Below, in pieces: positions 22,962 to 28,960 of a stretch of 32,639 nucleotides of DNA (positions are counted from its first letter, which is position 1; each line of letters starts with the position of its first letter). The notes under the pieces are model-generated. The model ran no database searches. It was given only the letters and a program-made list of their open reading frames with translations, and was not told the DNA's origin. Source of the DNA: Frankia alni (GTDB taxonomy: Bacteria; Actinomycetota; Actinomycetes; Frankiales; Frankiaceae). Location: NCBI GenBank assembly GCA_026225295.1, contig JAMFSN010000305.1, positions 1 to 32,639 of the forward strand. Reading direction: 5' to 3'. A program made the translations under genes and the position numbers.

Positions 22962-23732
22962 TCAGACCGCGTCGCCGACGGTGATGTTCCACAGGTTCGC
23001 GCCGACCACGCCGGGCTGGCCGTCGGTGGTCCGGCTCAGGTACGAGTACAACGAGGCGACGCCCTGCGACTGCGCGCCGAACTTGCCGTCCACCGTGAGC
23101 AGGAAGCTCTTCTTGCGCATCTCGGCCTGCCAGACGAGCGCGTCCGGCCGGACCTCGCCCGCGTCCTCGGTCGACAGCACGCCGTGGAACTTCGAGGTCT
23201 TCAACTGGGCCATCGCGGCCTCGACCGTGAGCGGCGGCTTGGCCGGCGTGGCCGGGGCGGGCGTGGCCGTGGTCGAGTCCTGGCTCACGTCCGGCGCGGC
23301 CGGGGCGGAGCCGGAGTTGCTCAGGCCGAGCGAGGCCGAGCAGGACGGCCACGGCGCCCAGCCGCGGGAGTTGTAGAGCTTGTAGGCGGCCTGGTCCTGC
23401 AGCGCGGCCGGGGCGTTGCTCGGCAGCCCGCTGTAGCCGAGGCCGTTCCAGGTGCCCTGGTCGAACTGGTAGGCGCCGTAGAAGCCGTTGCCGGTGTTGA
23501 TCGCGTAGTTGCCGCCCGACTCGCACTGCCGCAGGCGCGCGAAATCGTTGGCGGTGGCCGCTCCGGCCGGCATGGCCGTCGCGACGAGCCCGCCCCCCAC
23601 GAGCGCGGTGACCGCGCCGGTGGTGATGACGCGCCGGGCCTGCGAGGGCTCAGGGGCCGCGCGGTGACGTCCGGGCGCCGATCGCTCGGCGCGTCGGGAC
23701 GCCCGAGGGGATCCGCCACGTGGGTCGGGCAT
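22962..23732 (-). CDS. Secreted Rpf-like transglycosylase, copy 1
   Basis: 256 residues. A basic N-terminus (1-34) and a hydrophobic stretch (36-58, ending around AGA-AT) form a signal peptide. The transglycosylase-like (resuscitation-promoting factor) domain runs from about 62 to 132: LRQCESGGNY with catalytic Glu71, NTGNGFYGAYQFDQGTW, and Cys70/Cys131 that would form the family disulfide. A Thr/Pro/Ala linker follows, then a peptidoglycan-binding-like domain (about 195-250) in degenerate form. These enzymes cut peptidoglycan during growth and wake-up from dormancy. ATG 23732 follows GGGAAGGA by 8 nt. A c-di-AMP riboswitch ends about 15 nt before the start. Its core is almost identical to copy 2 just upstream. 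Confidence 0.92.
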   Translation of the reverse strand: MPDPRGGSPRASRRAERSAPGRHRAAPEPSQARRVITTGAVTALVGGGLVATAMPAGAATANDFARLRQCESGGNYAINTGNGFYGAYQFDQGTWNGLGYSGLPSNAPAALQDQAAYKLYNSRGWAPWPSCSASLGLSNSGSAPAAPDVSQDSTTATPAPATPAKPPLTVEAAMAQLKTSKFHGVLSTEDAGEVRPDALVWQAEMRKKSFLLTVDGKFGAQSQGVASLYSYLSRTTDGQPGVVGANLWNITVGDAV

Positions 23733-23746
23733 GCCGCCGATCCTTC

Positions 23747-23880
23747 CCGGAGCCTGCGAGGTGAGCTGTCGGGTGCGGGCTGGGATTGCCCGGTCGGTCC
23801 GGCGGCACTGCCGGACCGGCTTTACCCCTAGGGCGCTGGTGCGCCCACTTGGTGCCGGTGGTTCCCCCGCTCCCGCCCTA
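23747..23880 (-). promoter_or_regulatory. c-di-AMP (ydaO/yuaA) riboswitch, copy 1
   Basis: On the minus strand the conserved blocks of the ydaO class appear in order: GGCGGGAGCGGGGGAACC, then GGGGTAAAGCC, a variable GC-rich hairpin, GGGCAATCCCAGCCCG, and ACCCGACAGCTCACCTCG ending just before the ribosome-binding site. This class binds c-di-AMP and is known upstream of rpf genes in actinobacteria. The aptamer ends about 15 nt before the start codon, so control may act on the ribosome-binding site or on transcription near the gene start. Exact boundaries are approximate. Confidence 0.9.
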
Positions 23881-23967
23881 CTCGTTCGTTTCGTTGTGCC
23901 GTCCGGTCGAGGGCGGGATTGGGCTTTCGACCGGGCGACCTCACCTGTCAAGGTCAGTAGCGCCGGA

Positions 23968-23997
23968 CTGTAGCGGGTATGGCCCGATGATGGCAAA
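23968..23997 (-). promoter_or_regulatory. Candidate promoter for Rpf-like copy 1
   Basis: Minus strand: TTGCCA (23997 to 23992), an 18-nt spacer, and TACAGT (23973 to 23968). This places the start about 80 nt ahead of the riboswitch. A TTGACA at 23951-23946 lacks a good -10. Copy 2 has a similar TTGCCT/TATGGT pair before its riboswitch. Confidence 0.35.
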
Positions 23998-24132
23998 TCC
24001 GGGTGGTGCTCACGGCCTGCCCGGGTCAGGGCACCGGTGCCCCACTGACTATCGACTGCCGAAAAAGTCAGTTTAGTCGCTTTGGTGCCCCGGTCGGTGC
24101 TGGGGCCTGGGAACCGGGTCCGTTCAGACCTC

Positions 24133-24175
24133 GGGCCGGCTTCCTCCCCGCTGATGGCGGGGAGGAAGCCGGCCC
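24133..24175 (-). terminator. Long perfect hairpin after Rpf-like copy 2
   Basis: Two 19-nt arms (24133-24151 and 24157-24175) are exact reverse complements around a 5-nt loop. The hairpin starts about 70 nt after the stop of Rpf-like copy 2 on the minus strand and lies ahead of the copy 1 promoter, so it should insulate the two genes. No T run follows. Confidence 0.7.
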
Positions 24176-24244
24176 GATGACCGGCGGGACGGACGGGACC
24201 GGCGGACGGACGGGTCAGCCGTCCGGCCGGTCGCCGCGGCGGAC

Positions 24245-24964
24245 TCAGCCGAAGGTCGCGCGCCAGGTCTCCGGGCCGACGACGCCGTCGACGACCAGAC
24301 CCCTGGCCTGCTGCAGCGCGCGGGCCGCGCCCGCGGACCTCGGACCGTACTGACCGTCCACCACCAGGTGGTAGCCGATCTTGTTCATCCGCGTCTGCCA
24401 GGCGCGGACGTCACTGCGGACCTGGCCGACCAACGACGTCGTGAACAACGGCGACGTGCTCAGCGAGGCGGGACGGTAGACCGTCGCGGCCGAGGAGGTC
24501 CCGGCCGCGTTCTGCGTGAGGCTCGCCCGGGCGTAGCTCCGGTTGGCCCGGGTTGCGGGGGCCGGGGTCGGCACCGCGGCAACGGCGGGGGCCGCTACCG
24601 CGGACGACGGGGCGCCGCCCTGGAGACCCTGGCCGCAGGACGGCCACGGTGACGAACCGCGCTCGGCGAAGAGTTTCTGCGCGGCGGCGTCCTGGGTCGC
24701 CGGTGCCGCGTCGCTCGGGAGCCCGGCGTAGCCGAGGCCGTTCCAGGTGCCCTGGTCGAACTGGTATGCCCCGTAGAAGCCGTTACCGGTGTTGGTCGAG
24801 TAGTTGCCGCCGGACTCGCACTGGCGGAGCCCGGCCCAGGTGGTAGCGGCGTCGGCGGGTTGCGAGAGAGCGACCGTGCCCCCGACCGCCGCGGCGGCCA
24901 GAGCGGTGCTGAGAACGGCCCTACGGCCGAATCGATCTCGGATGCGCATTGACGCGTGGGACAT
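24245..24964 (-). CDS. Secreted Rpf-like transglycosylase with peptidoglycan-binding domain, copy 2
   Basis: 239 residues: a signal peptide (basic start, hydrophobic 17-34, cut near ADA-A, residue 39), an Rpf transglycosylase domain (about 41-115) with catalytic Glu50 in LRQCESGGNY, an Ala/Pro/Thr linker, and a C-terminal PG_binding_1 domain (about 180-238: WQTRMNKIGYHLVVDGQYG, then VDGVVGPETWRA). ATG 24964 is chosen because GGGGAAGGA lies about 6 nt upstream; an ATG five codons later and a GTG six codons earlier are possible. A second c-di-AMP riboswitch precedes it. The expected role is cell-wall remodelling at growth restart. It is followed by a 19-bp hairpin. Confidence 0.93.
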   Translation of the reverse strand: MSHASMRIRDRFGRRAVLSTALAAAAVGGTVALSQPADAATTWAGLRQCESGGNYSTNTGNGFYGAYQFDQGTWNGLGYAGLPSDAAPATQDAAAQKLFAERGSSPWPSCGQGLQGGAPSSAVAAPAVAAVPTPAPATRANRSYARASLTQNAAGTSSAATVYRPASLSTSPLFTTSLVGQVRSDVRAWQTRMNKIGYHLVVDGQYGPRSAGAARALQQARGLVVDGVVGPETWRATFG

Positions 24965-24979
24965 GGATGTCCTTCCCCA

Positions 24980-25101
24980 CACCTACGAGGTGAGCTGTCG
25001 GGTTCGGGCTGGGAATGCCCGGCCGCAATGGATGCGACTTCACCCCAAGGGCTGCGATCAACGCGATCGAAGTCCGGTAGTTGGTTCCCCCGCTCCCGCC
25101 T
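24980..25101 (-). promoter_or_regulatory. c-di-AMP (ydaO/yuaA) riboswitch, copy 2
   Basis: The minus strand repeats the same ordered blocks as copy 1: GGCGGGAGCGGGGGAACC, CTTGGGGTGAAGTCGC, CCGGGCATTCCCAGCCCG and ACCCGACAGCTCACCTCG. The 3' boundary lies about 15 nt before ATG 24964. The variable hairpins differ from copy 1 while the binding-core blocks match, as expected for a functional aptamer under selection. Confidence 0.9.
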
Positions 25102-25177
25102 GAGGTTTCTACATCGGATGAGGGCGGGACTCGGCGTGCCATCCAATGTGTGCCCACCCGGCGTGGGCACGGCGATG

Positions 25178-28105: not shown

Positions 28106-28960
28106 ATGCCGGGTTACCGCAAGTCGCAGCATTCCTCGCACCGCGCGCCACGTCGCCGGTCACCGGGCGGTCGCCGCACCGGTCGACCGGTCATGGTGTT
28201 CGCCGTGGTCGGGCTGTTCATAGCGATCACCGCCCTGGTCGTCGCCCGGGTGTCCGAGACCGGATCGACCTCCCTGGACCCGGCCAGCTCGGCCGCGGCG
28301 GTGGGCATGGTCGCCCGGGACCCGGCCACCGGGACCACGAGCCCGCCCACCGGGCCGCGCGGGCCGATGGCGCCCGGTCCGACCCGGGCGGCCGGCCTGG
28401 CCGGTCACGCCGCGACCCGGTCGACGACACCACCCGCGCACCGGGCGGCCGCGCCGTCGACCGCCCCGGCGGGCCGCCCGGTCGCCGGAACCCCGAGTTC
28501 CGGCCCGACCCGGGTGGTCCGCAACGCCCCCGCAACGCCCCCGCCGGCCGTGCCGGTCGGCGGGGGGAGCGCCGCCCTGACCGCCGCCGCCCAGGTCGTG
28601 ACCCTCACCAACGCTCAACGCGCGCTGGTCGGGTGTCCGGCCCTGACCGTCGACGGCCGACTGACGGCGGCGGCGCAGGGCCACAGCGTCGACATGGCCG
28701 TCCACAACTACTTCGACCACAACAGCCAGGCCGGCACCACGCCGTTCCAGCGGATGGTCGCGGCCGGCTACAACTTCACGGTCGCCGCCGAGAATATTGC
28801 CGCCGGCCAGCCGACCCCGGTCGCCGTCATGGCGGCCTGGATGGCCAGTCCCGGCCACCGGGCCAACATCCTCAACTGCGCGCTGCGCCAGATCGGCGTC
28901 GGATACTCCACCGGTGGTACGTACGGGAGCTACTGGACCCAGGACTTCGGGACCCCCTGA
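28106..28960 (+). CDS. CAP/SCP-domain (YkwD-like) secreted or anchored protein
   Basis: 284 residues: a basic N-terminus, one hydrophobic helix (about 29-48) acting as signal or anchor, a Pro/Thr/Ala-rich linker (50-150) likely to span the wall, and a CAP domain (about 158-284). The domain shows LTNAQRALVGCPALTVDGRL, HSVDMAVHNYFDHN with the cavity His, ENIAAG, and WMASPGHRANILNCALRQIGVGY, the hallmark order, ending in YWTQDFG. Function in bacteria is not settled; roles in wall binding or lipid binding are proposed. ATG 28106 has GGAAGG 4-5 nt upstream. A TACGGT at 28062-28067 is a plausible -10. Two cysteines fit the family disulfide. Confidence 0.93.
   Translation: MPGYRKSQHSSHRAPRRRSPGGRRTGRPVMVFAVVGLFIAITALVVARVSETGSTSLDPASSAAAVGMVARDPATGTTSPPTGPRGPMAPGPTRAAGLAGHAATRSTTPPAHRAAAPSTAPAGRPVAGTPSSGPTRVVRNAPATPPPAVPVGGGSAALTAAAQVVTLTNAQRALVGCPALTVDGRLTAAAQGHSVDMAVHNYFDHNSQAGTTPFQRMVAAGYNFTVAAENIAAGQPTPVAVMAAWMASPGHRANILNCALRQIGVGYSTGGTYGSYWTQDFGTP

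Follow-up and report, generated by a model that had tools for sequence, protein, structure and literature searches.

Between fba and purA, the genome analysed here carries two adjoining Rpf-type genes, each behind its own c-di-AMP riboswitch. We consider it very probable that these genes are old paralogues which have been kept together by vertical descent and whose Rpf cores look alike through conservation. In Actinobacteria, c-di-AMP riboswitches are established ahead of Rpf and other wall hydrolase genes. Our results extend this link to the family of the nitrogen-fixing Frankia, where a conserved locus has two genes and two switches. The new element is a conserved Rpf pair with a switch at both neighbours.

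Two riboswitch-Rpf units on the minus strand

The window, that is the whole stretch of 32,639 nucleotides that was analysed, carries both genes on the minus strand at positions 22962-25146, where a sequence-only reading of this DNA had placed two tandem Rpf-like genes. Gene B (24245-24964) comes first and gene A (22962-23732) follows, and both units are built alike, with a riboswitch leader and then an Rpf gene. Upstream of the pair lies fba; a gene for a small conserved protein (DUF) and purA lie downstream.

Both proteins pass the cut-off of 27 bits for the Rpf domain PF06737, with 78.4 bits for A (domain at 23340-23561, minus strand) and 73.6 bits for B (transglycosylase-like domain at 24635-24850, minus strand). 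Protein B has 239 residues and consists of a signal peptide-like N-terminus, the Rpf domain, an Ala/Pro/Thr linker and a peptidoglycan-binding domain (PG_binding_1, PF01471, 48.2 bits; residues 183-236, positions 24257-24418, minus strand). We assign it as the B orthologue by synteny and tree. Protein A (256 residues), with orthologues in all sampled Frankia-clade genomes, follows the same domain order, as the reading had noticed, but its last domain has diverged. PF01471 finds no match at the C-terminus of A, nor in any of the 17 A proteins scanned. The 58 C-terminal residues of A (residues 195-252, positions 22977-23150, minus strand) are conserved and, by profile-profile comparison, related to the B-type peptidoglycan-binding domains (hhalign 98.3%, E 2.1e-14). 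An AlphaFold model of protein A, with a pLDDT under 50 at the C-terminus, was set aside.

The catalytic-type Glu of the CESGG motif is present in both proteins, and from their domains A and B are predicted to be secreted muralytic enzymes of the Rpf type. Neither reaches the cut-offs of the NCBIfam Rpf and RpfC equivalogs (best scores 81.3 against 180 and 78 against 200); we accordingly class them, by these profile scores, as Rpf-domain proteins and not as the named equivalogs.

The two units are separated by a perfect, GC-rich 21-bp hairpin without a U-tail (24131-24177, minus strand, between gene B and leader A); the surrounding region (24120-24190) has a minimum free energy of -58 kcal/mol and a z of -7.7. 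This hairpin is a probable actinobacterial-type terminator of gene B. Together with a possible promoter of gene A (TTGCCA-18-TACAGT, 23967-23996, minus strand), which matches the consensus weakly, the U-run-less hairpin suggests that gene A is transcribed apart from B. Rfam miRNA-like matches at 24120-24184 were dismissed as chance hits to the long hairpin, with scores far below their cut-offs.

Further genes were seen in passing. Near the pair, positions 28106-28960 of the window encode a secreted CAP/YkwD-like protein (TIGR02909, 117 bits, below the cut-off of 171), homologues of which occupy the same locus in some Protofrankia-type genomes. Elsewhere in the same genome (G000), at least two more Rpf genes lie behind riboswitches (C177:36599-37082, L002; C290:1-600, L012; C256:1-398, L006). 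In these, the residue ahead of the catalytic-type Glu is Lys (KESGGNW) and not the usual Cys. The Rpf gene on contig C177 runs off the contig end and resumes in C290 (127-nt overlap), and C256 starts within another Rpf core.

Leader A is a diverged c-di-AMP riboswitch

Leader B (24974-25144, minus strand) is a c-di-AMP (ydaO) riboswitch that scores 73 bits with RF00379 at 24967-25146, above the gathering score of 38. Leader A (23745-23933, minus strand) stays below that cut-off with 31.6 bits, from a partial match (30-114) at 23756-23870. The match has an E-value of 3.5e-5 for the whole genome and is one of eight RF00379-like sites there. The RF00379 scan that the sequence-only reading had proposed thus bears out one of its two switches, and the second is recovered with a model built for the family.

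This covariance model, R1, was made from 15 Frankiaceae/Frankiales leaders of other genomes, with the window excluded from training. Its helices contain 10 pairs that are changed on both sides, a count reached in 0 of 500 shuffles, and 97% of the cells in its alignment are paired compared to 40-51% when the alignment is slid. R1 finds both window leaders at full length, B with 132.8 bits (E 7e-32) and A with 105.6 bits (E 3.6e-25, model positions 1-187). The closing helix of leader A reads AGCC/GGCU in place of CGCC/GGCG, of which the outer pair is C-G in all 15 training leaders. Given the full-length match and the maintained closing helix, leader A is, by sequence and predicted fold, a real though diverged c-di-AMP riboswitch, and the possibility that it is no valid riboswitch was discarded on the family-model match. 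By score it is a relative of RF00379 and not an Rfam-threshold member.

The core of leader A also deviates from the consensus, with UAAA for UGAA and GCAC for GAAC. These altered positions, which are otherwise conserved, and the RF00379 score of 31.6 against 38 bits would be expected if leader A were decaying and non-functional, with gene B alone still under c-di-AMP control. We regard such decay as unlikely. It sits poorly with a full-length match to R1 and with a closing helix that is maintained through a two-sided change. In addition, UAAA with GCAC is common to A leaders of genus g3 and of L050, which argues that the variant is old and retained, and U-N-AA variants are present in other leaders of these genomes as well.

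Those A leaders of the Frankia clade that were read by eye combine UAAA always with GCAC, UGAA always with GAAC and UUAA with both, while the B leaders have UGAA with GAAC or GAAU. These combinations may possibly reflect a correlated tertiary contact. Since UNAA variants are found in other leaders too, we do not claim a correlated change.

The Rpf pair is older than the lineage of the window

The order fba-B-A-DUF-purA is found in about 30 Frankia-clade genomes, and every complete contig examined agrees. Whole-genome searches within the same family place two Rpf genes 1.3-2.3 kb apart in nearly all genomes of g2, g3, g5 and g6; the exceptions are G013, with the pair spread over two contigs, G003, which is 63% complete, and G006, which is without the pair. 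About 20 more named Frankia, Parafrankia, Pseudofrankia and Protofrankia genomes have the same pair, a count in which some species are entered under two handles. RF00379 lies upstream of both members in the scored genomes, with some A leaders again below the cut-off. The pair was not found in the one deeper family member checked, and a wider sample of the class gave no close Rpf pairs outside the family among the matches listed.

Outside the Frankia clade, five other Frankiales MAGs (L087-L090 and L092) have one Rpf gene between fba and the DUF gene, the contig of L092 stopping before DUF. Three of these (L088, L089 and L092) have RF00379 above its cut-off. No Rpf gene is found at the fba-purA site in G006 and in the class outgroups G019, G024, G025 and G029. 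In these genomes (L211 and L213-L216) fba and purA are near neighbours, and the DUF gene stands between them in all except G025, so the locus is a stable one which the Rpf genes have either entered or left. In G027, RF00379 is found directly after fba, at the contig end.

Trees of the proteins agree with a deep split. In the full-protein tree all A proteins form one clade (93/100) and the B proteins another, and B joins the Rpf genes of G006 and G024 (L062/L022; 97/92), apart from A, G024 being from another family than the window. The tree of the C-terminal part puts window A among all other A proteins (99) and window B on the B side. These trees comprise 72-192 columns and contain long branches, and for that reason we claim no exact root for the A/B split. 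With A and B in separate clades, and B nearer to the genes of G006 and G024, the trees date the A/B split before the Frankia clade.

Two species trees conflict on the place of the window lineage within the Frankia clade. With fba, purA and DUF, the window is nested and the Pseudofrankia group is the first branch (98/94); with rpoB and dnaN added and with class outgroups, the window itself branches first (98/98). The pair predates the window's lineage under either topology. A tree that included partial outgroup loci misplaced those loci and was excluded.

The sequence-only reading had taken the pair for a recent tandem duplication of the entire riboswitch-gene unit and had proposed a tree of Rpf domains as a check. 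The genes are indeed adjacent, in the same orientation and of the same architecture, with similar cores. Nonetheless, a pair of the same synteny exists across the Frankia clade, A and B are each monophyletic across genomes with one window copy in each, and the C-terminal halves, linkers and leaders have strongly diverged. In both the C-terminal and the full-protein trees, window A and window B are not each other's closest relatives, as recent tandem duplicates would be; they diverged long before the lineage arose, a result that the reading itself had named as refuting its view. Synteny and trees therefore lead us to reject a recent duplication, which we hold to be extremely improbable.

Conservation suffices to explain the near-identical core block

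The similarity that had suggested recent duplication is real. As reported from the sequence (about 65 nt), the core blocks of A (23433-23498, minus strand) and B (24728-24793, minus strand) are the same at 63 of 66 nt, and 39 nt form one mismatch-free run, the longest among the 35 loci compared (near-duplicate entries included). The sequence-only reading offered gene conversion or strong selection as the cause. Of these, selection is the better account.

In its conversion form, the explanation would be that the paralogues are old and that a short, lineage-specific A-to-B tract gave this genus its similar cores. We favoured conversion at first, on the core-only tree, in which window B groups with A, and on a run test of the window pair (p = 0.0013). 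The 39-nt run points the same way, and so do the shared codons across QFDQGTWNGLGY-G, of which 13 of 13 are identical against an expectation of 8.5. Other genomes and outgroups then made it unneeded. The A block is as close to the Rpf genes of other Frankiales (63/66 with L088 and L089) as it is to B, so by this comparison the block is simply conserved and not specific to the A/B pair. Third-position identity of A and B has the same value, 0.56, whether the two genes come from one genome or from different ones, which speaks against concerted evolution; for the window pair it is 0.67, not above the values of up to 0.71 between window B and the A genes of other genomes. The A-like residues of the window B core (F20, D27, G33, R59 and P63, 0-based) are those of most single-copy outgroups, and for this reason they are probably ancestral and were later replaced in other B genes. 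Given the amino acids, the run of identical codons has a weaker p of 0.017, on a block that was chosen because it is alike. We thus think a conversion tract very unlikely. On these comparisons, a strongly conserved Rpf active-site region and GC-rich codon bias suffice for the core likeness. More generally, near identity of DNA in an Rpf core argues only weakly for a recent duplication.

A model for joint control by c-di-AMP

For an old Rpf pair with two conserved switches, we propose the following working. Each unit would comprise a c-di-AMP riboswitch, a short ribosome-binding segment and the gene. The genome has one gene with a DAC domain (DisA-type). At high levels of DisA-made c-di-AMP, each leader would bind the ligand and fold into the aptamer, the closing helix of which adjoins the ribosome-binding site, and both enzymes would be expressed less. 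A drop in c-di-AMP, perhaps at germination, outgrowth or osmotic change, would allow A and B to be made together and to cleave peptidoglycan. Control of muralytic activity by c-di-AMP, which the sequence-only reading had also envisaged, is plausible, and Streptomyces rpfA offers a precedent.

The distance from the end of the aptamer to the start codon is about 20 nt in both window genes and about 17-25 nt in the Frankia-clade leaders measured, too short a stretch to hold a terminator, and no U-tailed one was found. In C. glutamicum, nlpC likewise has no canonical terminator, and its repression most likely acts at translation (PMC9960051). By analogy, the short gap and the missing terminator fit repression at the translational level, which we think is probably the mode used here.

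Relation to known riboswitch-hydrolase systems

The closest known system is Streptomyces rpfA, where the same RNA family lies ahead of a gene for a secreted muralytic enzyme with an Rpf domain. Streptomyces rpfA is repressed by c-di-AMP, with the effect reported on transcription, and it too lacks a canonical terminator (PMC10117811, PMC9960051). The transcriptional effect there counts against the translational mode proposed here. Such riboswitch-linked hydrolase genes number 7 in S. coelicolor and 6 in S. venezuelae (PMC10117811). The locus described here differs in having two adjoining Rpf genes with one switch each. The nlpC and rpf1 (RF00379) genes of C. glutamicum are likewise actinobacterial wall hydrolase genes behind ydaO-type switches, but no adjacent pair is described there, and nlpC encodes an NlpC/P60 peptidase. 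The 77 reported tandem c-di-AMP riboswitch doublets (PMC9481103) also bring two aptamers near each other. While those aptamers stand in series, the two in this locus precede one gene each, and a strong hairpin lies between the units.

Our literature search found no paper on Frankia Rpf riboswitches. In a Streptomyces-like large-genome genus (G033, G051, G065 and G077), tandem Rpf genes have RF00379 at the second gene only. The double-switch pair is for this reason best seen as a known system in a modestly altered, lineage-specific form.

Finally, the two switches may not respond alike. Most A leaders have a changed core (UAAA with GCAC, or UUAA), whereas B leaders keep the canonical one (UGAA with GAAC or GAAU), and one could read this as a divergence in c-di-AMP sensitivity by which falling c-di-AMP would release first one enzyme and then the other. 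This staggered release is doubtful. If the A and B switches do differ in affinity, the locus would offer a simple natural test of why parallel switches of the same class persist.
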